The position numbers and the translations under genes were made by a program. A stretch of DNA of 6,971 bases from Clostridia bacterium (GTDB lineage: Bacteria; Bacillota_A; Clostridia; Oscillospirales; CAG-272): positions 1 through 6,971 of the forward strand of contig JAFXWT010000101.1 in the NCBI GenBank assembly GCA_017542695.1, in the 5' to 3' direction. The notes under the pieces are model-generated. The model did no database searches. It was given only the letters and a program-made list of their open reading frames with translations, and was not told the origin of the DNA. Positions 1 through 6,971 of the stretch are shown here, piece after piece (within the stretch, counting starts at the first letter, position 1; each line of letters begins with the position of its first letter).

Positions 1-1
1 A

Positions 2-241
2 TATTTTCGTCACCGAGAGGGCGGCAGATGGGTCGAACTCTACCTCGGCAAAAAGATTATCGACGATTATGTGCCCAAGGTCGAGAGCAACAATCGCATA
101 CGAGAAATCGAGAGGGAACTCCGAGAGATTCGTAAGGCACTGGCACAGGTGCGGGAGCGGCTCGGACTTCGTGACGAAAATAATACTGCCTGCACGCAGA
201 TGACCATCGAGGAGGCACTGGGCGGAGAGGGCGTGAAGTAA
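2..241 (+). CDS. C-terminal end of an unrecognised protein with a charged helical tail (5' truncated)
   Basis: The frame is open from the left edge to a TAA at 239-241, giving 79 residues with no start in the window, so this is the 3' end of a larger gene. It begins YFRHREGGRWVELYLGKK. Residues 27-57 are rich in Arg, Glu, Ile and Leu with heptad-like spacing (IREIERELREIRKALAQV), suggesting a coiled coil or long amphipathic helix, followed by a flexible tail ending GGEGVK. The family is not recognised. Two copies of the window-wide motif lie inside it: TTTTCGTCACCGA at 4-16 and TTCGTGACGAAAA at 168-180, the latter read as Leu-Arg-Asp-Glu-Asn. Long open frame, sensible composition and a clean stop just before the non-coding array support it as coding. 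No terminator is evident after the stop. Confidence 0.7.
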   Translation, partial: YFRHREGGRWVELYLGKKIIDDYVPKVESNNRIREIERELREIRKALAQVRERLGLRDENNTACTQMTIEEALGGEGVK

Positions 242-261
242 GATTTTCGTCCTGAAATCGG

Positions 262-299
262 GAAGCGGCACTTGCTGCTGAGCTCAGAACCGTCGCTTC
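262..299. repeat. Inverted repeat in the first wholly non-coding array interval
   Basis: GAAGCG (262-267) pairs with CGCTTC (294-299) and encloses the perfect 10-bp palindrome CTGAGCTCAG (278-287). It lies between motif copies at 244 and 320. No U-tract follows, so it does not look like an intrinsic terminator. Confidence 0.5.
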
Positions 300-341
300 T
301 CAGATGCTCCGTGTCGTTCTTCGTGACGAAAATGTAAGACA

Positions 342-394
342 CACAGATGTTGCTGCCACGAGCGTCTTCGACGATACTTGGGTACCCATCTGTG
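342..394. repeat. 8-bp inverted repeat with nested palindrome
   Basis: CACAGATG (342-349) is the exact complement of CATCTGTG (387-394), with 37 bases between. The perfect palindrome TGGGTACCCA (379-388) overlaps the right arm, so two exclusive folds are possible. It lies between motif copies at 320 and 409. Confidence 0.5.
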
Positions 395-450
395 AATCAC
401 AGGCAAACTTTCAAGACGAAATTTTGAATCCAGCTCAACTCACTCCGACT

Positions 451-462
451 GCAGTGCACTGC
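451..462. repeat. Perfect 12-bp palindrome
   Basis: GCAGTGCACTGC reads identically on both strands. It lies roughly midway between motif copies at 409-422 and 503-516, and is the longest uninterrupted palindrome I see in the array. Confidence 0.55.
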
Positions 463-533
463 GATGGACCGGCGAGTCAATTGGCAGAGTGTCAATGATT
501 CATTTTCGTTCTGAAACACTTATGAATGGCACG

Positions 534-566
534 CTGCAGGTATCCTGCCTCAGAATCCTGATGCAG
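534..566. repeat. Hairpin-forming interval between converging motif copies
   Basis: CTGCA (534-538) can pair with TGCAG (562-566), and GCAGG (536-540) with CCTGC (544-548) over a 3-base loop. The flanking F copy at 503-516 and R copy at 567-580 are themselves near inverted repeats, so the whole 503-580 unit is a possible cruciform. Confidence 0.45.
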
Positions 567-687
567 TTTCAAGACGAAAATCATTACTCACAGTTAATCC
601 ATTTGAACTTCGAGTAAGAATGCCATCCCACGGTGAATCAGACTCCAATGTGTATTTTCGTTCAGAAGGAGATTGCTGACACCCTGA

Positions 688-698
688 GGACGTCGTCC
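688..698. repeat. Perfect 5-1-5 inverted repeat
   Basis: GGACG-T-CGTCC lies in the interval between the F motif at 655 and the R motif at 718. The arms are fully complementary with a single central base, which looks more like a dimer binding site or cruciform centre than an RNA hairpin. Confidence 0.45.
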
Positions 699-748
699 CA
701 AGCATGACTGACAGATATTTCTCGTGACGAAAACTTCTTTCCTGAGTC

Positions 749-789
749 CTGCGCGCAGACGCCGGGATCTGCTCTGAAGAGCATGTCTG
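749..789. repeat. Nested inverted repeats in an array interval
   Basis: CTGCGCGCAG (749-758) is a perfect 10-bp palindrome. CAGAC (756-760) can pair with GTCTG (785-789) around an inner hairpin GCTCT-GA-AGAGC (771-782). The set lies between motif copies at 718 and 802. Confidence 0.45.
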
Positions 790-912
790 TGAGTAGGCAC
801 TTTTTCGTTCAGAAATCAGATGTCGGGATGAGAAGCGACTGGGATCCGGAAGGGCTCTGAACAGCGACTTTATGACGAAAATGATAGCAAGCATCTGACA
901 CGCGTCGATCGT

Positions 913-925
913 AATCCAGGGGATT
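913..925. repeat. Perfect 5-3-5 inverted repeat
   Basis: AATCC-AGG-GGATT lies between the R motif at 868 and the F motif at 929. The right arm ends only 3 bases before the next motif copy. Confidence 0.45.
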
Positions 926-972
926 GCCTTTTCGTTCTCAAACTGTTTACTTAAACACCTGGATGGAGGTGA

Positions 973-987
973 GATCCCGCCGGGATC
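973..987. repeat. Perfect 6-3-6 inverted repeat
   Basis: GATCCC-GCC-GGGATC lies between F motif copies at 929 and 999. A short outer pairing of CCTG with CAGG could extend it. It is the strongest short-loop hairpin of the array and has no U-tract. Confidence 0.5.
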
Positions 988-1089
988 AGGAATTACATTT
1001 TTCGTTCTGAGTTTTGAATTCGAATCCGGAATTCCTTCATGATGATCAGTATTCCCGCGTAAAAACCTTTTCGTTCAGAGATTGTTTTC

Positions 1090-1126
1090 TTGAAACGATT
1101 GCAAAAACTCCCGTAGATTGTACATA
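1090..1126 (+). promoter_or_regulatory. Weak candidate promoter for the 1160 gene
   Basis: Two partly overlapping sigma-70-like pairs are visible: TTGAAA (1090-1095) with TAGATT (1114-1119) at 18 bp, and TTGCAA (1099-1104) with TACATA (1121-1126) at 16 bp. Neither is a good consensus. The position, just after the last array motif and 34-70 bases before the start codon, is what makes a promoter plausible here. Confidence 0.3.
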
Positions 1127-1159
1127 CCGAAATTCAAAAATAGGAAGGAGTTTTTCAAA

Positions 1160-1717
1160 ATGAAAACAAAGACCAAATCACTTGATGAGTTGGCGCAAGA
1201 ATGTAAGCAGTCGTATGAGCGATGGACAGACCTTCATAACAACGGGTGTCGAGACCCCTGTTGGACAGACGGCGTAAATCTCAATCTCGTACGGAATCAC
1301 ATCATTCATTACAAACGGCAGATGGCGGTTTTATACAAAGAGGAAGGTGTGGAGCCACCACCCATTCTCTTAAGGGAACTGCCTCCGAGACTTGACCCAA
1401 AGTTTATGGCGAACGCAGATGAGATATGTCAGCGTGCCGCCGACATCATGACGAAAATAAGTCAGATGCCGGAGTACGGTGAGCTGAAGAGCATTTATCC
1501 TGGGTTAAGCCCCGCGCAGCGCAAGCAGAGTGGCTGTCAGTTTTTGATGAATTGGATTTCAAGACTAAAATCTGCAATCGAACAGGACAATCTAGTCGTA
1601 ATGCGCATCCACCTCTGGCAGACGGATGATGTATACGAAAAGATGGGTGAAGCTTTGGCGCAAGCCAAGGCGATGCCGGTAGAGTCTTACCAGCTGTCTA
1701 TGTTCGACATAGCGTGA
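1160..1717 (+). CDS. Conserved mobile-element protein with a C-terminal clamp-binding-like motif
   Basis: The product is 185 residues. The ATG at 1160 is chosen because GGAAGGAG (1143-1150) precedes it; the longer in-frame TTG at 1118 has no ribosome binding site. The N-terminal third contains CKQSYERWTDLHNNGCRDPCW followed by DGVNLNLVRNHIIHYKRQ, then PPPILLRELPPRLDPKFMA. From memory this resembles a widespread uncharacterised family on gut Firmicutes plasmids and phages; no search was possible. The middle and C-terminal parts look helical. The C-terminus, YQLSMFDIA, places QLSMF at residues 178-182, close to the QL(S/D)LF peptide that binds the DnaN sliding clamp, so contact with the replication machinery is possible but unproven. 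A motif copy lies in the gene at 1444-1457 (Met-Thr-Lys). No catalytic residues are recognised. Confidence 0.85.
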   Translation: MKTKTKSLDELAQECKQSYERWTDLHNNGCRDPCWTDGVNLNLVRNHIIHYKRQMAVLYKEEGVEPPPILLRELPPRLDPKFMANADEICQRAADIMTKISQMPEYGELKSIYPGLSPAQRKQSGCQFLMNWISRLKSAIEQDNLVVMRIHLWQTDDVYEKMGEALAQAKAMPVESYQLSMFDIA

Positions 1718-1861
1718 TTTCGTGACGAAAACGGATTCACCCGTTCGCCGTCGGACACTGAAGTACCACTTGAGTTCGGTAACGTATAGTTTGCTGAGAA
1801 GTTGGATTTCGGTGCCGGCGCCGGACTGGCGACAGGAGCGAAAATGATTTAAGAACGAAAA
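1718..1861. repeat. Outlying motif pair flanking a 10-bp palindrome
   Basis: The intergenic space before the 1875 gene starts with TTTCGTGACGAAAA (1718-1731), whose first bases directly follow the stop codon, and ends with TTTAAGAACGAAAA (1848-1861). Between them is the perfect palindrome CCGGCGCCGG (1815-1824). This repeats the array's plan of motif, dyad, motif outside the main array. I see no convincing promoter here, only a lone TATAGT at 1785-1790 without a suitable -35. Confidence 0.6.
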
Positions 1862-1865
1862 GGAG
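1855..1865 (+). promoter_or_regulatory. Ribosome binding site fused to a motif copy (1875 gene)
   Basis: The motif core ACGAAAA runs directly into the Shine-Dalgarno, giving ACGAAAAGGAG, ten bases before the ATG at 1875. The same fusion recurs upstream of the genes at 3007, 5588 and 5988. Confidence 0.75.
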
Positions 1866-1874
1866 TTTAATAAA

Positions 1875-2633
1875 ATGAAAATCATTCAGACACAGAACTG
1901 GGAGACTGTCCCCGACCATCCGAATCTCGTAAGACCCGTTTCACAACGAAAAGCAAAAGAAGTTTTCAAAGAACTTGAGGAGGCACTCCGAGATGCTGAG
2001 CTGTATCCCAATGAGTATTTTCTTCTGGACCGCGATTTTGATGACGAAAAGGCGGAGTTTCCGGTTATTCACGACGTTATCTGCTATGCCCAATGGGGCG
2101 GCAACGAGGGAATCTATCTGGAGGTGGAGTTGGTTATCTTTGATGAGAACAGCAAAACTTACAGACGAAAAAACTTCGCTACCGGCAAGACGCTCGCAGA
2201 GGATTCCGCGTCATTCGACAGGATGCAGTACATTGCAGGGTACATCTACAAGCTTTTCGCAGGCGGGCATCAAACCCCTGCAAGATACGTTTTGGTTGAG
2301 AACGAGGAGAAAAACCGGGAGACACTGCTCACGCGCGTTGCGCGGGAGTACCGTGAATATCTGCTCACCAATCTCGTCCACAAACAATTGGAGCTTGATG
2401 AGGTTACCGAACAGATCGCACTGCGAAGCGCCATCGTTCACGAGCTGCCTGAGTGCCTTCTCCCCGAAGATAAGGTCAAGGAACTGATCGAATCCGAGAA
2501 CGCACTGGACCTCTTGGCGAAAATCTGCGAGCCGATCATCGACTGGGATGCAGACTCGATCAACGAGATGGTTTCGTCCTGCGATTCCTTTTATAACGAA
2601 ATAGAAAGGATGGCAAAGAGGCATGGAACATGA
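1875..2633 (+). CDS. Uncharacterised accessory protein, 252 residues
   Basis: Start at 1875 follows AAGGAG with a normal gap. The protein has no signal peptide or membrane segment. The N-terminal half includes a beta-rich stretch IYLEVELVIFDENSKTY, then a segment GKTLAEDSASFDRMQYIAGY (about residues 104-123) that recalls a pattern seen in other proteins of gut mobile elements; this is memory-based. The C-terminal half is predicted helical and acidic, with regular Glu/Leu/Lys and a tail EIERMAKRHGT. Function is not recognised. The gene contains three R copies of the motif: TTTCACAACGAAAA at 1939, TTTGATGACGAAAA at 2037 (Asp-Asp-Glu-Lys) and CTTACAGACGAAAA at 2158 (Arg-Arg-Lys). The two Arg-Lys-type readings and the Glu-Lys reading show the motif in different frames of one gene. 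Its last 11 bases overlap the next gene. Confidence 0.85.
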   Translation: MKIIQTQNWETVPDHPNLVRPVSQRKAKEVFKELEEALRDAELYPNEYFLLDRDFDDEKAEFPVIHDVICYAQWGGNEGIYLEVELVIFDENSKTYRRKNFATGKTLAEDSASFDRMQYIAGYIYKLFAGGHQTPARYVLVENEEKNRETLLTRVAREYREYLLTNLVHKQLELDEVTEQIALRSAIVHELPECLLPEDKVKELIESENALDLLAKICEPIIDWDADSINEMVSSCDSFYNEIERMAKRHGT

Positions 2634-3000
2634 GTTCAGGATTCCGGAAGAACTTACCTACGAGGATATTCATGTCCAATACGGAACCGGCAGATACGTA
2701 CGCACATCAGGTTCCGGCAGGAACGCGCAGGGCTACTACCGCACCGGTTTCATGACGAAAATAGGTGATCTTGACGAACAAACCTGGATAGCCTATGCAG
2801 AGGAACTGGTCAGTCGAAACGGAGACGGAGCTGTTCTCAAACAACTCGAACAGTGGTTTGCCGAACATCTCGCCTGGCTTCGTGACGAAAAAGCAGTACA
2901 CCTGTACGCATTGAAGTTCCTCATCGCAGGTCTCCACGAGAGTTCCAAGTGGGTAGATTATGAGGCGTTCCATCAAAAATTCAAGAACGAAAAGGAGTAA
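2623..3000 (+). CDS. Uncharacterised small protein, 125 residues
   Basis: The ATG at 2623 overlaps the previous gene by 11 bases. Spacing of possible ribosome binding sites is imperfect: AAAGGA at 2605-2610 is 12 bases away and AGAGG at 2617-2621 is too close, so translation may be coupled to the upstream gene. The product begins MEHEFRIPEELTYEDIHVQY, has a Gly/Ser-rich segment near residues 23-40, and a helical C-terminal half with FAEHLAWLRDEK. No known domain is recognised. Perfect motif copies lie at 2748-2761 (TTTCATGACGAAAA, read Phe-Met-Thr-Lys) and 2878-2891 (CTTCGTGACGAAAA, read Leu-Arg-Asp-Glu-Lys), and the C-terminal KFKNEKE is encoded by a third copy that also forms the next gene's ribosome binding site. 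Confidence 0.8.
   Translation: MEHEFRIPEELTYEDIHVQYGTGRYVRTSGSGRNAQGYYRTGFMTKIGDLDEQTWIAYAEELVSRNGDGAVLKQLEQWFAEHLAWLRDEKAVHLYALKFLIAGLHESSKWVDYEAFHQKFKNEKE
2980..2997 (+). promoter_or_regulatory. Ribosome binding site fused to a motif copy (3007 gene)
   Basis: The core ACGAAAA (2987-2993) continues as GGAG (2994-2997), nine bases before the ATG at 3007. The motif also encodes the last residues (Asn-Glu-Lys-Glu) of the preceding protein, so one short sequence serves coding, translation start and motif. Confidence 0.75.
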
Positions 3001-3006
3001 GAACAG

Positions 3007-3636
3007 ATGAATACCAAGATCAGCTATATGTATCGCGACGCGGCAAACTACAAGATCCACTGCGAAGAAGTGGTAAAGGGTGAAATTCGTGACGAAGATC
3101 GGGAAGATCTCTTTGAAAACCATCCTACGGAACTGGAGGAGTTTTATCCAGCTACCGTCGGATTCAAAGCGCCCACTTTCGTCACGGAGGGCTACAAACC
3201 GTACCCTGACGATCCCGACACGCATGAGATCAGCGACATTACGCTTACGGAGCGTGAACCGACCGTCGACATGAACGTCGAGGACTTCGTAGCGAGAATC
3301 CGCAGCGGATTTACATCCAGACCGGCTTTCGTCGTGACGAAATTCGGAATGGTTCTGAAAGAGAAGCCGCCTGAGGAGGGACTCACAGTTGCTGAGATCA
3401 CCGAGATGCTTGACAAACTCGACCTCAGTCAGCAGATCTTCCCGGTGGACATCGAATCCAAGGACAGCAACAGTTGCGCTCTCGGTTTCGTCACGAGCGA
3501 AGCTTACGAAGCCATCGACTACGATCTCAGAGAACTGGATGGTTTCCTGAAAGCAAGGTTGTTCGACACAGATTCAACAACTGATTTTCGTTCTGAATAT
3601 ATCTTCCACGACGTTCGAGTTCACCTCAGCAGGTAG
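3007..3636 (+). CDS. Conserved two-part mobile-element protein, 209 residues
   Basis: Start at 3007 follows AAGGAG by nine bases. The N-terminal part (about 1-100) opens MNTKISYMYRDAANYKIHCE, continues with EEFYPATVGF and includes EREPT near residues 83-87. This resembles, from memory, a common uncharacterised family on gut Firmicutes mobile elements. The second part (about 125-209) has ITEMLDKLDL, a GFVTSEAYEAIDYDL segment and a C-terminus YIFHDVRVHLSR, a pattern I associate with a separate small family, so this may be a fusion. Function is unknown. The gene is dense in motif copies: 3086-3098 (GTGACGAAG form), 3178 (TTTCGTCACGG), 3328-3342 (TTTCGTCGTGACGAAA), 3486 (TTTCGTCACGAG) and 3585-3598 (F orientation TTTTCGTTCTGAAT, read Phe-Arg-Ser-Glu). 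Confidence 0.87.
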   Translation: MNTKISYMYRDAANYKIHCEEVVKGEIRDEDREDLFENHPTELEEFYPATVGFKAPTFVTEGYKPYPDDPDTHEISDITLTEREPTVDMNVEDFVARIRSGFTSRPAFVVTKFGMVLKEKPPEEGLTVAEITEMLDKLDLSQQIFPVDIESKDSNSCALGFVTSEAYEAIDYDLRELDGFLKARLFDTDSTTDFRSEYIFHDVRVHLSR

Positions 3637-3653
3637 CAATGGAGGAGAATCGG

Positions 3654-3833
3654 ATGAAAACGTTGAATGAGTTTAAGGACAAAATCAGTAAAACTGAAAC
3701 CCAAGAGAAATTCGGCGACATCGCGTACGAAGCGTTTCTTCAGGACGACCGTGCGCTGCAGAGTAAGAATTCTCTGTACGAAAAGGTAGTCAAGCTTTGC
3801 ATCAAACGCGAGGTTGAGCTGGGACTTTTGTAA
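3654..3833 (+). CDS. Small uncharacterised protein, 59 residues
   Basis: The ATG at 3654 is preferred over the in-frame ATG at 3639 because GGAGGAG (3641-3647) lies at the right distance from 3654. The product begins MKTLNEFKDKISKTETQEKF and is charged and helical throughout, without cysteines suggesting a metal site and with no membrane segment. It is not recognised. The ACGAAAA core at 3778-3784 encodes Glu-Lys. It begins 17 bases after the previous stop, consistent with the same transcript. A structured intergenic region follows it. Confidence 0.75.
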   Translation: MKTLNEFKDKISKTETQEKFGDIAYEAFLQDDRALQSKNSLYEKVVKLCIKREVELGLL

Positions 3834-3838
3834 GACAA

Positions 3839-3852
3839 TTTCATAACCAAAA
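3839..3852. repeat. Degenerate motif copy TTTCATAACCAAAA
   Basis: This differs from TTTCATAACGAAAA by one base (G to C at the CpG position). It sits just after the stop of the 3654 gene and just before the multi-arm hairpin region. It may be a decayed copy. Confidence 0.4.
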
Positions 3853-3853
3853 T

Positions 3854-3918
3854 TCAGTTGCCCCAAGGATGCGGGCAAACCAAATCCACGGCGGGCAACT
3901 GAACTACGGTTGCCCGCC
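3854..3918 (+). promoter_or_regulatory. Multi-arm hairpin with competing pairings ahead of the 3944 gene
   Basis: Four complementary arms are visible: A TCAGTTGCCC (3854-3863), D GCGGGCAA (3871-3878), B GGCGGGCAAC continuing to TGA (3890-3902), and C GTTGCCCGCC (3909-3918). B and C form a perfect 10-bp stem with a 9-base loop. A pairs perfectly with the last ten bases of B, and D can pair with C, so A:B and B:C exclude each other. This resembles an attenuator or antiterminator layout. Only TTTG follows the B:C stem, so if it terminates transcription it does so weakly; protein binding or mRNA-end protection are alternatives. The 3944 gene's ribosome binding site starts about ten bases downstream. 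Confidence 0.6.
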
Positions 3919-3943
3919 TTTGTAATGAAAGGAAGTTTGTATT

Positions 3944-5074
3944 ATGCATACAATCACATTGGTAACCGTAGAGGTGCCGAAAGGTCTGAACGAAAATGAG
4001 GAGTTGGCAAAGAAGAATCAGATTCAAAGCCTGATCCAACTGGCGGCTCACCACGCATCGTGCGCACCCGAAAACAAGGACGATATTATGATGGGCATCT
4101 TACGCGGCAGGATCAATTGCCGCAGAGACCCTTTTTCGTCAGCAGTTGACGACGCGGTAGCAGAAAAACTTGAACCATATGATGAGAACTGTAGTAATCC
4201 CAAGCACCTTGAGTTTCATGACGAAAATGAATCTGTCAGGGAAGAATGGGAAAACGGGACTCTCGACTGCATTCGTACGCCGGATGGCAGAGTTGTTCCT
4301 GTGAATTCTCAGTGGGATTATGTAATTCGAGATGGCAAGGTCTACGAGCGTTACGCCGGTCCTCTTCGTCACGAAATGAGGACGAAAAAGGCGAAAAAGC
4401 ATACAGCATTGCCTGCATACCCCATCCAAAAAGCCTTCCGTTCCTTAGGGGAATATGCGGCAGACTATCAGAACTTCGTGTTTGACGAGGACAAGAACGC
4501 CTGGGGTTACTACACCAACAAATACGGAGCATTCTGGGACTGGTATGCAGTCGGCGGCCGGTGGCCGACGATGTTTCTTGTCAAATCCGACTGCACCGAA
4601 TTTTCCATCGGTGACGTTGACCGTGAAGAGCCGGATGACGACGGAGCGCTGGAAGGGTACCGTTTCGCTGTCGCAGCGAGAAAAAAGGATATTCAGTGGC
4701 AAGCCTATTACGAATGGCAGAAGAGCTCGGCGACGGAGCGATTTTTCGTTCTGAAAGACGCCTTCGAATCAAAATCGATTCCGGAAGGGTTTTACGCTCA
4801 TCTCAAAGAAGATGGAATCTACACTTGGAACGGACTTTTGTATAAGGACGGCGAATCTCTGGACGAATATCTTAAGCGGCTCGGCTTCAACGATAACCTC
4901 AAGTACCACGCCCACGGCGGTGCGTATCTCGATTTGCAGGGAGTTTATCACGGAGGATGCTTTGCATCTATGTTCTCCGGCGAGCGAGACGACGCGTGGT
5001 CTCTGGAAATGGAAAAGTTTATAGACGAAATTCCGGATGATACCGTTATCGTAGCCGTTGATTGCCATAACTGA
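3944..5074 (+). CDS. WDWY/GGRW-motif protein of unknown function, 376 residues
   Basis: The largest gene in the window. Start at 3944 follows GAAAGGAAG (3927-3935). The clearest signature is GYYTNKYGAFWDWYAVGGRW at residues 188-207, and the protein ends DDTVIVAVDCHN. From memory, a WDWY-x-x-GGRW block plus a VDCH-type C-terminus marks a family of uncharacterised proteins in phages, plasmids and Firmicutes; I know no established biochemical role. The N-terminus MHTITLVTVEVPKG looks like a short beta strand. Residues 80-145 are polar and include a motif-encoded FHDENE. No membrane segment. Motif copies: 3990 (Asn-Glu-Asn), 4133 (F), 4214-4227 (perfect TTTCATGACGAAAA), 4364-4377, 4382, 4743-4756 (F, Phe-Val-Leu-Lys) and 5018-5031 (Asp-Glu). 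Copies become sparse after 4390. Confidence 0.88.
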   Translation: MHTITLVTVEVPKGLNENEELAKKNQIQSLIQLAAHHASCAPENKDDIMMGILRGRINCRRDPFSSAVDDAVAEKLEPYDENCSNPKHLEFHDENESVREEWENGTLDCIRTPDGRVVPVNSQWDYVIRDGKVYERYAGPLRHEMRTKKAKKHTALPAYPIQKAFRSLGEYAADYQNFVFDEDKNAWGYYTNKYGAFWDWYAVGGRWPTMFLVKSDCTEFSIGDVDREEPDDDGALEGYRFAVAARKKDIQWQAYYEWQKSSATERFFVLKDAFESKSIPEGFYAHLKEDGIYTWNGLLYKDGESLDEYLKRLGFNDNLKYHAHGGAYLDLQGVYHGGCFASMFSGERDDAWSLEMEKFIDEIPDDTVIVAVDCHN

Positions 5075-5088
5075 GGAGGAAGTGCTTT

Positions 5089-5607
5089 ATGAAGGAATCC
5101 AAATCCGAGCGATTTCACAGATTGATCGAGGCGAGAGTAAATAAGGCGATCAAGATGATTCGCCTAATTGGCAACTGTTCGACCGAGAGCAACTATGAGT
5201 ACACACCCGAGCAGGTTTCGCAGGTGTTTGACGCCTTGCAGAGAGAACTCAACGCGGCGCGTATGAAGTATGTTGCTCAGCATAAGGGTAAGAAGCGATT
5301 TTCTCTGTCCGAACCTCTTCAGGACGAAAAGGCGGATGAGATCTATCCAACCGTTTACCTTGACCTTGAGGATGGAACAGTCCTGAGTGCCACAGCGGTT
5401 GCGGGCGAGTATCCGTCGATCGACGTCAACTTGATCAGACCGTGCGATTCTCAGGACGAAAAAGTTGCGTTTGTCGAGTGGAATCACGACAGAGAGTCCG
5501 GAAGGGAACTGTGCGTCGGTTGTTACCGACACATTGGAGGCGAGCCGGCGTATTATCAATCTTATAATGACGAAAAGGAGCATAGCAATGACATTGATAA
5601 TCAGTAA
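5089..5607 (+). CDS. Conserved mobile-element protein with RVNKA...IRLIGN N-terminus, 172 residues
   Basis: Start at 5089 follows GAGGAGGA (5074-5081), which begins at the stop codon of the previous gene. The N-terminal helix carries RVNKAIKMIRLIGN and then SNYEYTPEQV (residues 16-43), a pattern I recall from an uncharacterised family common on gut Firmicutes elements. A second part (about 85-160) looks beta-rich: YPTVYLDLEDGTVLSA, YPSIDVNLI, VAFVEWNHD, and AYYQSYN, similar in layout to domains often attached to large polyvalent proteins of such elements. Function is unknown. Motif copies at 5317-5330 and 5449-5462 are both read Asp-Glu-Lys, and a third at 5563-5576 encodes Asn-Asp-Glu-Lys-Glu while forming the next gene's ribosome binding site. 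It overlaps the PcfJ-like gene by 20 bases. Confidence 0.86.
   Translation: MKESKSERFHRLIEARVNKAIKMIRLIGNCSTESNYEYTPEQVSQVFDALQRELNAARMKYVAQHKGKKRFSLSEPLQDEKADEIYPTVYLDLEDGTVLSATAVAGEYPSIDVNLIRPCDSQDEKVAFVEWNHDRESGRELCVGCYRHIGGEPAYYQSYNDEKEHSNDIDNQ
5570..5580 (+). promoter_or_regulatory. Ribosome binding site fused to a motif copy (5588 gene)
   Basis: ACGAAAAGGAG ends eight bases before the ATG at 5588 and lies inside the coding sequence of the upstream gene. It is identical over 11 bases to the sites before the genes at 1875, 3007 and 5988. Confidence 0.75.
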
Positions 5608-6004
5608 AGAACAGTTTGATGCTGTCAACGCAATGACCGAACGGCATAAGCAGTTATCGCTTATCGGAGAGAAGTTCATCATAAGACCTTTTAAAGATTG
5701 GTATGATTTTCTCCGTGAGGGACGAACGCTTCGTCACGCTGTTCACTACTATGCACTGAACCAATATGTAAACGGTAAAGATTACCTTTTCGCCATGAGA
5801 AGTGTCGAGAAAGCGGATACACCCTTTATCACTATAGAATTTGATGTTCATGGAAAGTTGGTTCAGGCGGTGAAACTCCACAACTCACCGATAAAAGATG
5901 CAGATGAGTCGGATTTCATCAATCACTTTAGAGAGAAGATTCTGTTGCCGTATTTATTGAAACTTAAAGACGAAAAGGAGAACGAAAATGAAAGTGAATC
6001 TTAA
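5588..6004 (+). CDS. PcfJ-like protein, short stand-alone form (138 residues)
   Basis: The ATG at 5588 is chosen because it follows the fused AAGGAG; the frame stays open upstream but without a site. Residues 38-125 match the pattern of the PcfJ C-terminal domain: DWYDFLREGRTLRHAVHYYA, then NGKDYLFAMR, TPFITIEFD, GKLVQAVKLHN and a following helix with FREKIL. PcfJ is named from the conjugative enterococcal plasmid pCF10, where it belongs to the transfer region; its biochemical activity is, to my knowledge, not settled. Typical PcfJ proteins are several hundred residues long, so this carries little more than the conserved domain. The family's usual HHCVG-like segment appears here as LRHAVHYY, so a conserved Cys and Gly are missing. 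The basic-acidic tail KDEKENENESES is partly encoded by motif copies. Confidence 0.8.
   Translation: MTLIISKEQFDAVNAMTERHKQLSLIGEKFIIRPFKDWYDFLREGRTLRHAVHYYALNQYVNGKDYLFAMRSVEKADTPFITIEFDVHGKLVQAVKLHNSPIKDADESDFINHFREKILLPYLLKLKDEKENENESES
5963..5990 (+). promoter_or_regulatory. Two tandem motif copies forming the ribosome binding site and start codon of the 5988 gene
   Basis: CTTAAAGACGAAAA (5963-5976) runs into GGAG, and a second core ACGAAAA (5982-5988) ends on the A of the ATG at 5988. The two cores are 12 bases apart, the closest pair in the window. Both lie within the end of the PcfJ-like gene. Confidence 0.7.
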
Positions 6005-6254
6005 AGCTTTTCTGGACACGTGGAACGTCTCACTTGAAGACATAGCCGGTTATCTCGGTATGTTTATCGCAGACAACGAGGTCATTCCTCAAGGCACCGT
6101 TACATTGAAGAGGTTTGAGGAAACGGTCGGTCAGTATATTGCGGAGTCGCTTGAAGCAGGCGAAAACCCGGAGTATATCCTGACGAAATTGGCTTCCGAA
6201 CACGAGGATCAGGAGATCCTCAGAGAAATGCTTTACGAGGAGGAAGACTCATGA
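5988..6254 (+). CDS. Small acidic uncharacterised protein, 88 residues
   Basis: Start at 5988 follows AAGGAG (5975-5980) at 7 bases and overlaps the previous gene by 17 bases. The product begins MKVNLKAFLDTWNVSLEDIA, is helical and strongly acidic toward the C-terminus (ILREMLYEEEDS). The LDTWNVSLEDIAGYLGM segment might be read as a helix-turn-helix-like pair of helices, but no family is recognised. A motif variant ACGAAAT at 6183-6189 encodes Thr-Lys. The stop overlaps the next start as ATGA, indicating translational coupling. Confidence 0.8.
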   Translation: MKVNLKAFLDTWNVSLEDIAGYLGMFIADNEVIPQGTVTLKRFEETVGQYIAESLEAGENPEYILTKLASEHEDQEILREMLYEEEDS

Positions 6255-6523
6255 CGAAAGTGTATGCGGAATTTGACGTGGATGAATCGTTCCTTATCGA
6301 CAATGATGACGAGACGCTGTCTGAACGTATAGATGAAGAGTGCGGTTGGATCGAGCAGAGCAGGATGTTCTTAAAGAACAAACTCATTGTGGACGAAAAT
6401 GATGATTGGCACAGGTACCTGCGGTATCTGGTCGATTGGGCTATGAAAGCTCAGGATTTCGTCACGAAAACTGACAGCCCGATGTCCTACGAAGAGTTTC
6501 TTGAAAGGAGTTCAGAGCAATGA
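6251..6523 (+). CDS. Small acidic uncharacterised protein, 90 residues
   Basis: The ATG at 6251 overlaps the previous stop (ATGA) and follows GAGGAGGAAG (6238-6247). The start itself sits in a motif variant, CATGACGAAAG, giving Met-Thr-Lys. The product begins MTKVYAEFDVDESFLIDNDD, with a beta-like opening (KVYAEFDVD) and a helical remainder. It is very acidic in the first half. Motif copies at 6393-6399 (Asp-Glu-Asn) and 6457-6470 (TTTCGTCACGAAAA, read Phe-Val-Thr-Lys). Not recognised. Its stop overlaps the next start by four bases. Confidence 0.8.
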   Translation: MTKVYAEFDVDESFLIDNDDETLSERIDEECGWIEQSRMFLKNKLIVDENDDWHRYLRYLVDWAMKAQDFVTKTDSPMSYEEFLERSSEQ

Positions 6524-6780
6524 CTTGGAGAATACCTGTTACCTGGTCGATGTGCGCAGTGATTCCGATCGAGGCTGACTCGCTGGAAGAGGCGATGCAA
6601 ATCGCTCGTGACGAAGATGGAGTTATCCCTTTGCCGCCTGCGACCGAGTCCGACTATGTCGATGGCAGTTGGTGCTTGTCCCACGAAGATACGGAAATGG
6701 TGCGTCAGTGCTATAACGGTGGAAGAAAAGATCCGGCGTTCACAAATACCGCGTTGAAAAAAGATGAAACTGTGCTATAA
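6520..6780 (+). CDS. Small conserved-looking protein, WxxPVTW type, 86 residues
   Basis: The ATG at 6520 overlaps the previous stop (ATGA); AAAGGAG (6504-6510) precedes it. The layout is WRIPVTWSMCAVIPIEADSL, then EEAMQIARDE, IPLPPATESDYVDGSW. From memory this beta-helix-beta order, with an ADSLEEA helix start and a PLP...YVDGS ending, is common in small uncharacterised proteins of gut mobile elements. No enzymatic residues are evident. The motif variant CGTGACGAAG at 6608-6617 encodes Arg-Asp-Glu. The last codons carry a candidate promoter for the following gene. Confidence 0.8.
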   Translation: MTWRIPVTWSMCAVIPIEADSLEEAMQIARDEDGVIPLPPATESDYVDGSWCLSHEDTEMVRQCYNGGRKDPAFTNTALKKDETVL

Positions 6781-6781
6781 T
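6754..6781 (+). promoter_or_regulatory. Candidate sigma-70 promoter with extended -10
   Basis: TTGAAA (6754-6759) and TATAAT (6776-6781) are separated by 16 bases, with TGC directly before the -10 (extended -10). The -10 is a perfect consensus. It lies in the last codons of the 6520 gene and would start transcription near 6788, leaving a leader of about 25 bases before the ATG at 6814. It is the best promoter candidate in the window. Confidence 0.6.
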
Positions 6782-6813
6782 AATCTTAGGAATACGAAAG
6801 GATTCAGAAAGCT

Positions 6814-6971
6814 ATGAAAACAGCAAAAATAGAAACGGTCTATCTTACCTGCACGGATGCTGAAATGGCAGATCTTGCAGAACGGATGGAAAAAGGGATT
6901 GAATCCGATGGAAGCTTTACCGAAGAATTTCGTGACGAAAACTTCACGATTCGGTTCTGCAGTCAGACGTC
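6814..6971 (+). CDS. N-terminal part of an unrecognised protein (cut by the right edge)
   Basis: Start at 6814 follows AAAGGA (6797-6802) and lies downstream of the 6754-6781 promoter candidate. Fifty-two complete codons are present and the frame is open to the edge. The product starts MKTAKIETVYLTCTDAEMAD, with a beta strand then a helix (ADLAERMEKGIESDG), and an EEFRDENFTIRF stretch in which RDEN is encoded by the perfect motif TTTCGTGACGAAAA (6928-6941). Family not recognised. Confidence 0.75.
   Translation, partial: MKTAKIETVYLTCTDAEMADLAERMEKGIESDGSFTEEFRDENFTIRFCSQT

Follow-up and report, generated by a model that had tools for sequence, protein, structure and literature searches.

The 6,971-bp stretch of Clostridia DNA analysed here at its full length (contig JAFXWT010000101.1, 48% G+C; henceforth the window) is saturated with an imperfect dyad of 14 bp that recurs in genes and non-coding DNA alike and keeps, with two exceptions, a minimum distance from its neighbours. 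The sites are best explained as operators at which a single abundant, dimeric DNA-binding protein, belonging either to the replicon or to its host, would play an architectural role in compaction, partition or replicon-wide silencing; a probability of roughly 0.45 seems appropriate for this reading. The DNA itself probably derives from a mobile element of gut bacteria.

The 7-mer ACGAAAA/TTTTCGT is the most enriched of its length in the window. It occurs 38 times on both strands together, in agreement with the hand count of about 38 in the original prediction, while 200 dinucleotide shuffles contain 2.48 copies on average (standard deviation 1.57, maximum 7), so the enrichment is real. When 37 of the 38 exact sites were aligned on this core alone (one was omitted, being too close to the window end), the left flank showed T at 0.53, 0.65 and 0.91 and C at 0.63 at positions -7 to -4, followed by an A-rich position, G/T and G/A. 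Since this left half is conserved independently in sites that were picked by the right half alone, TTTCNNNACGAAAA is a real unit. An iterated matrix, with a threshold of about two hits per shuffled window and hits merged into sites, has the consensus TTTC[A/G][T/G][G/A]ACGAAAA, an imperfect dyad about the seventh base. The symmetry centre is the N of TTTCGT-N-ACGAAA; ACGAAAA is the strict half, and in the relaxed half it is the two positions adjacent to the centre that vary. Alignment and matrix thereby bear out the early description of a dyad with one strict and one relaxed half. In a dyad scan of the window, TTCGT-N-ACGAA was observed eight times with 0.007 expected.

The matrix identifies 55 merged sites, 7.9 per kb or about one per 130 bp, which occupy 11% of the window; the exact core reaches 5.5 per kb. 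Scores are clearly split: lowering the limit from 10.4 to 8 adds a single hit, and lowering it to 6 brings the additional hits to six. The sites are present in coding (39) as well as non-coding DNA (16), in agreement with the original prediction. The window comprises a 918-bp non-coding stretch at 242-1159 followed by closely packed open reading frames (ORFs) on the plus strand, the gene models having been chosen from an ORF list. The sites are given below with coordinates, strand, matrix score and place.

4..17, minus, dyad site, 14.4, in ORF A
167..180, plus, dyad site, 21.4, in ORF A
244..257, minus, dyad site, 22.8
319..332, plus, dyad site, 22.7
409..422, plus, dyad site, 16.6
503..516, minus, dyad site, 21.2
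567..580, plus, dyad site, 19.9
655..668, minus, dyad site, 16.6
720..733, plus, dyad site, 18.6
802..815, minus, dyad site, 19.5
868..881, plus, dyad site, 18.9
929..942, minus, dyad site, 17.5
999..1012, minus, dyad site, 15.2
1068..1081, minus, dyad site, 18.2
1153..1166, plus, weak dyad site, 11.7
1444..1457, plus, dyad site, 18.6, in ORF B
1557..1570, plus, dyad site, 15.7, in ORF B
1718..1731, plus, dyad site, 22.7, after ORF B
1848..1861, plus, dyad site, 18.3, adjoins ribosome-binding site of ORF C
1939..1952, plus, dyad site, 15.3, in ORF C
2037..2050, plus, dyad site, 20.3, in ORF C
2158..2171, plus, weak dyad site, 11.9, in ORF C
2371..2384, minus, weak dyad site, 12.4, in ORF C
2510..2523, plus, dyad site, 15.2, in ORF C
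2589..2602, plus, dyad site, 13.7, in ORF C
2748..2761, plus, dyad site, 21.4, in ORF D
2878..2891, plus, dyad site, 20.3, in ORF D
2980..2993, plus, dyad site, 14.3, ORF D end, adjoins ribosome-binding site of ORF E
3085..3098, plus, dyad site, 17.8, in ORF E
3176..3189, minus, dyad site, 13.3, in ORF E
3285..3298, plus, weak dyad site, 12.7, in ORF E, 45 bp to next site
3330..3343, plus, dyad site, 15.6, in ORF E
3485..3498, minus, weak dyad site, 11.9, in ORF E
3585..3598, minus, dyad site, 18.9, in ORF E
3771..3784, plus, dyad site, 14.3, in ORF F
3839..3852, plus, dyad site, 15.7, between ORFs F and G
3983..3996, plus, dyad site, 13.5, in ORF G
4133..4146, minus, dyad site, 13.6, in ORF G
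4214..4227, plus, dyad site, 23.1 (top score), in ORF G
4363..4376, minus, dyad site, 19.8, in ORF G
4375..4388, plus, dyad site, 14.5, in ORF G, 11 bp from preceding site, the clearest spacing exception
4743..4756, minus, dyad site, 17.4, in ORF G
4856..4869, plus, dyad site, 15.1, in ORF G
5018..5031, plus, dyad site, 13.4, in ORF G
5317..5330, plus, dyad site, 21.1, in ORF H
5449..5462, plus, dyad site, 20.2, in ORF H
5563..5576, plus, dyad site, 16.8, in ORF H, adjoins ribosome-binding site of ORF I
5787..5800, minus, dyad site, 17.2, in ORF I
5963..5976, plus, dyad site, 16.9, in ORF I, adjoins ribosome-binding site of ORF J
6176..6189, plus, dyad site, 16.4, in ORF J
6247..6260, plus, dyad site, 15.1, spans ORF J/K overlap
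6386..6399, plus, dyad site, 16.0, in ORF K
6456..6469, minus, dyad site, 19.4, in ORF K
6604..6617, plus, dyad site, 14.3, in ORF L
6928..6941, plus, dyad site, 20.7, in ORF M

The sites keep apart from one another, a minimum-spacing rule that is a new observation and was absent from the original prediction. Only 2 of the 54 centre-to-centre gaps are shorter than 62 bp, whereas random placement gives 20.9 on average and never fewer than 9 in 100,000 draws. None of the 13 gaps in the first 1.1 kb (14 sites below position 1100) falls under this limit, with 7.3 expected at random, and in the remainder 2 of 40 do (14.2 at random). The limit of 62 bp was picked after the gaps had been seen; for the exact 7-mers alone, 1 of 37 gaps lies below it, compared with 10.6 at random (p = 0.00014 with null sites at least 14 bp apart), and the same exact-core test gives p = 0.00018 at 50 bp, none in 50,000 draws at 60 bp and p = 0.0017 at 65 bp. 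The largest gap between sites is 369 bp and the coefficient of variation (CV) of the gaps is 0.55.

The spacing is tightest where no protein is encoded:

242..1159, no strand assigned, non-coding array of 13 sites, centre-to-centre gaps of 62-95 bp, mostly in alternating orientation

Successive gaps from 173 to 1075 measure 78, 74, 90, 95, 63, 89, 64, 83, 65, 62, 70 and 69 bp. With sites assigned by their centres, the density is one per 79 bp in non-coding DNA (16 in 1,257 bp) versus one per 147 bp in coding DNA (39 in 5,714 bp), and a pitch of about 62-95 bp is probably preferred and only partly attainable in coding sequence. As to an RNA reading, no Rfam family exceeded its cut-off, and the 921-nt array, folded as single-stranded DNA, is barely better than its shuffles (z -1.9, 1 of 20 shuffles being as good). 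The stop codon of ORF A stands two bases ahead of the array site at 244, and a near-palindromic sequence, GCTCTGAAGAGC / GCTCTGAACAGC, is present in two copies between array sites, at 771-782 and 854-865.

The enrichment of the sites goes beyond codon use and protein sequence. Twelve gene models, which add up to 5,529 bp when overlaps are counted for both genes, contain 23 exact cores, compared with 6.3±2.2 (maximum 15) when synonymous codons are shuffled and the proteins kept, and with 1.8±1.3 (maximum 5) when codon order is shuffled within genes, in 300 runs; codon-shuffled controls thus leave the enrichment unmatched. The corresponding figures for matrix sites are 36 versus 9.6±2.3 (maximum 17) and 1.4±1.2 (maximum 7), where the observed count is favoured because the matrix, unlike the exact word, was trained on the window, and where the shuffled codon pool already includes the site codons, a bias in the opposite direction. 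Codon choice inside the sites is nearly fixed (Thr ACG 9/9, Glu GAA 19/20, Asp GAC 13/14, Lys AAA 15/16), largely because of how the sites are defined; they are read in three frames and give peptides such as DEK/DEN, MTK, RRK and FVTK. Cores within genes lie on the plus strand in 20 cases and on the minus strand in 3, a bias that the composition of the proteins predicts (5.9 and 0.46 under the synonymous null), so that no strand or transcript function need be assumed and orientation looks indifferent, as for a dyad. A transcript-strand signal was rejected on the same account.

The evidence that the motif imposes or freezes protein sequence is mixed. The codons within the sites of ORF G exceed the remaining ones in conservation in two aligned relatives, P0004 (0.93 versus 0.76, equalled in a fraction of 0.005 of mask rotations) and P0005 (0.78 versus 0.57; 0.035), and not clearly so in P0001 (0.112), P0002 (0.059), P0003 (0.309) or the other 15 aligned. 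For ORF E, none of the 12 aligned relatives shows a clear site-codon difference, and distant relatives tend to be lower. Six sites precede chosen gene starts by 1-28 bp. In four of these (1848-1871, 2980-3006, 5563-5587 and 5963-5987) the centre is 19-21 bp upstream of the start and the site passes directly into the ribosome-binding site (ACGAAAAGGAG), so that a protein bound there could also affect expression.

A dyad with a tolerant half, the lack of an orientation preference beyond that set by codons, a minimum distance that is broken only twice and a higher density in unconstrained DNA are together as expected of operators for a dimer whose bound unit takes up or organises about 60-95 bp. 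The features expected of an architectural array, namely sites above chance, a minimum spacing and independence from coding, are all found in the window, and from them we infer the protein, its dimeric state, its footprint and its function. On this model the window would be saturated with putative operators for one abundant dimeric DNA-binding protein; each 14-bp site, TTTCRKRACGAAAA, would be one dyad occupied by a dimer, one of its halves being of high affinity and the other tolerant. Each bound unit would be given at least about 62 bp, and where coding constraint is absent one unit would occupy every 62-95 bp. The outcome would be a beads-on-a-string nucleoprotein array across genes and non-coding DNA, of which 242-1159 may represent a fully loaded segment, and its most likely purpose would be compaction, partition or silencing of the replicon. 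A bolder version of the model, which at present is a rather unlikely one, is a sequence-encoded bacterial chromatin, in which a whole mobile replicon, genes included, would be overwritten with 14-bp dyads whose pitch does not fall below about 62 bp, and coated by one dedicated dimeric protein in regular units, setting the element physically apart from host DNA, nucleases or transcription. If the sites do form a binding array, the window would exemplify a mobile replicon whose sequence itself sets the spacing of its nucleoprotein, and element-specific chromatin, partition or self-recognition would become directly testable.

Several observations weigh against the dimer operators. The sites are asymmetric and as a rule no perfect dyads, and two gaps, of 11 and 45 bp, break the minimum spacing. 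Helical phasing near 10.5 bp, to be expected of many cooperative arrays, is not seen in the gap lengths (R 0.13 versus 0.15 by chance). Scans with Pfam, PHROGs and NCBIfam, each covering 10 of the 13 window ORFs and none of them ORFs F and M, recognised no DNA-binding protein; nor was a ParB/KorB-family protein found in this set. The proposal of an abundant, element-encoded dimeric DNA-binding protein, made in the original prediction, is partly supported: evenly spaced sites are compatible with a bound protein that has a footprint, while the scans recognised no candidate for it.

The genes of the window offer some clues to the nature of this DNA:

2-241, ORF A, C-terminal part, two dyad sites, coiled-coil-like look
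1875..2633, plus, ORF C, 252 aa, sub-threshold DUF3848 match, 6 dyad sites
3007..3636, plus, ORF E, 209 aa, 6 dyad sites
3944..5074, plus, ORF G, 376 aa, phrog_10079 relative (function not known for that phrog), 8 dyad sites
5588..6004, plus, ORF I, 138 aa, PcfJ-like, PF14284, E 3.7e-11

The PcfJ-like ORF I, the weak DUF3848 similarity of ORF C (under the Pfam cut-off, with 12 of 19 aligned family members matching at 0.01) and the phrog_10079 relationship of ORF G may hint at a conjugative or phage-like element of Clostridia, a slender set of similarities for such an assignment. ORF A matched no family over its cut-off, and PADLOC returned nothing for 10 window ORFs. The structure of ORF G, for which the prediction is of good confidence (mean pLDDT 87.7, pTM 0.78), has no counterpart among solved structures at E <= 0.001 in Foldseek (22 matches up to E 10), and its family is possibly a new fold whose function is yet to be assigned. 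Between ORFs F and G, at 3890-3918, a strong, terminator-like hairpin, GGCGGGCAACTGAACTACGGTTGCCCGCC, is followed by TTTGTAATGA; such matches are about as frequent in shuffles.

Megablast of the window against plasmids and phages gave no match, and DNA of its own lineage was not found in the collections searched. ORF G has 121 homologues in the protein database; among the 120 listed, four show 78-86% identity, all of them on short contigs of one source (ENA), and the next is at 59%, with the rest lower. The best hits in metagenome clusters reach 98% for ORF C (39 member sequences), 94% for ORF E (62) and 86% for ORF G (45), and with such close homologues the lineage seems to be a genuine one that recurs. 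A search based on 20 aligned sequences from the 120 listed led to 131 loci (74 + 57) with ORF G relatives on genome and viral contigs, the stronger matches being mostly labelled gut Clostridia, with 41% identity at best. None of the 131 is saturated with the core: the highest has 5 ACGAAAA with 0.8 expected (among the best 40 by observed/expected), and the top 7-mers of these loci are weaker than that of the window (z at most 23 versus 38, an N-run excluded). In the same loci, an unbiased dyad scan picked up one other dyad with a comparable excess: GTGAG-N5-CTCAC, of which the 20 kb of one viral contig, L242, contain 10 copies (0.02 expected). With tblastn, ORF G matched no plasmid and three phage records at 25-36% identity, the two examined (L336 and L337) having no cores; a distant homologue is present in Myxococcus phage Mx1.

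Pattern scans of viral contigs gave either no hits or loci that are not core-saturated. One returned at least 120 stretches, the densest among the matches listed reaching 2.65 cores per kb on a 1.1-kb piece; in another (loci from L252 on) the densest locus, L283, has 7 cores in 1,852 bp in a local cluster of other structure, and the loci counted in two further scans do not exceed 1.07 cores per kb, L003 having been counted with the loci of the first scan instead. The viral contigs L283 and L291 have in common clustered, hairpin-like ACGAAAA/TTTTCGT elements (TTTTCGTGACCCCACGAAAA), which extend for about 130 bp and form a local structure of another kind. No viral loci were found for ORFs E and C. 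Among 391 genomes sampled from the class (probably Clostridia) of a genome with an ORF G relative, three contain relatives of ORF C, with 0 to 3 cores per locus and no saturating excess. TTCNNNACGAAAA has matches in 387 of the 391, with counts mostly under those of the reversed-pattern control; the highest count, 41 in one genome (control 9), is over the control but spread across many contigs, and none of the 391 is saturated with the motif. A two-site pattern in 51 genomes, from the order of another genome (G003), gave three single hits, fewer than the reversed control. Within the related loci and genomes searched, which do not include the window's host, saturation is confined to the lineage or replicon of the window itself. 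In the open-access literature, as far as the available portions of text go, no paper was found carrying the dyad spellings, and nothing evidently on this site stood among the listed matches for dispersed motifs.

The sites could alternatively be dispersed operators of a replicon-wide repressor that silences transcription along the element, in the manner of KorB operators or mycobacteriophage stoperators, an explanation that we consider unlikely, if credible. The dyad with its single-base centre resembles the KorB operator, TTTAGC-S-GCTAAA, and the six sites ahead of gene starts fit repressor operators. KorB silences at a distance (PMC11790492), but RK2 carries only 12 KorB sites, according to the title of a reference cited there. 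The repressor of L5 has its sites in promoters and in short gaps between genes, oriented with transcription (PMC9283540, in part), whereas most of the sites here are coding and their strand bias is explained by codons. Similarly unlikely is a self-recognition signal for DNA uptake, transfer or packaging, in which a receptor or loading protein prefers site-bearing DNA and sites build up until every short fragment has one. At the present density nearly any 400-bp fragment does carry a site, given the largest gap of 369 bp, which fits such a signal; to our knowledge, however, no uptake sequence has been described in Gram-positive bacteria. Uptake sequences have been reported to be significantly evenly spaced (Karlin et al., cited in PMC1939737), but uptake has no need of a hard lower limit near 62 bp.

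A HIP-type mutational or methylation ratchet, by which a modification enzyme and mismatch repair accumulate a word that has no operator role, appears improbable. HIP1 is likewise strongly over-represented genome-wide, and a ratchet model has been proposed for it in PMC4390886; this model saturates near one per kb, whereas the window has 5.5 exact 7-mers and 7.9 degenerate dyads per kb, and HIP1 on plasmid pANL lacks any exclusion of short gaps. Equally hard to sustain is the notion of recombination or excision signals, with the sites as the ends of small exchangeable segments. The non-coding array does contain four minus-then-plus inverted pairs, with gaps of 74, 63, 64 and 65 bp, and orientation alternates over most of 173-936; however, most gene-borne sites are not in such pairs, and a repeat search of 1-1200, beyond the site-based families, found one 12-nt pair and imperfect inverted matches only. 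Chance, codon bias or an assembly artefact can be practically dismissed: the composition of the proteins does lift the plus-strand core count (5.9 under the synonymous null), but the dinucleotide, synonymous and codon-order shuffles, the non-coding array and the near-identical proteins in metagenome clusters all count against such explanations.

The parS sites of Noc/ParB, the matS sites of MatP and the sites of RacA are dyads of 13-16 bp for chromosome-organising proteins; they are short dyads like those of the window, and unlike them number tens per chromosome. The KorB operators of IncP plasmids, served by a ParB-family CTPase clamp, are also odd-centred dyads with TTT...AAA arms dispersed on a mobile replicon. 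A dyad operator is thus common to KorB/ParB and the window; the few sites near promoters or a centromere that characterise the former are not what is seen here, where 55 sites lie within 7 kb (12 on RK2, by the title referred to in PMC11790492) and 39 are coding. The stoperators of cluster A mycobacteriophages likewise are asymmetric 13-14 bp sites repeated over the element. Each genome has more than twenty of them, located in promoters and short spaces between genes, and their orientation follows transcription (PMC9283540, in the parts consulted); the window, with 39 of 55 sites coding and a strand bias explained by codon composition, does not follow this mainly intergenic, transcription-oriented pattern.

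DNA uptake sequences occur genome-wide in naturally competent Gram-negatives (Pasteurellaceae, Neisseriaceae), at roughly one per kb and with no dyad, as against about eight sites per kb in the window. They too are dispersed, and have been described as significantly evenly spaced, yet less evenly than compaction would require (PMC1939737, as excerpted). HIP1 of cyanobacteria (GCGATCGC) is again a short word dispersed at high density, with 1,000-2,000 copies per Mb (PMC4390886, in its available text), but it is an exact 8-bp palindrome with no minimum spacing. On pANL it occurs 95 times in 46 kb (2.07 per kb), with a gap CV of 1.08 and 47% of gaps below 0.484 of the mean, whereas at the equivalent limit the window has 3.7% (2 of 54) with a CV of 0.55; the sites are thus denser than HIP1, as originally claimed, and differ from an octamer at about 1-2 per kb without exclusion. 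With its long dyadic site repeated about every 130 bp, at distances that almost never fall below the minimum and at the expense of codon choice, the window is denser than the dispersed-signal systems with which it was compared.

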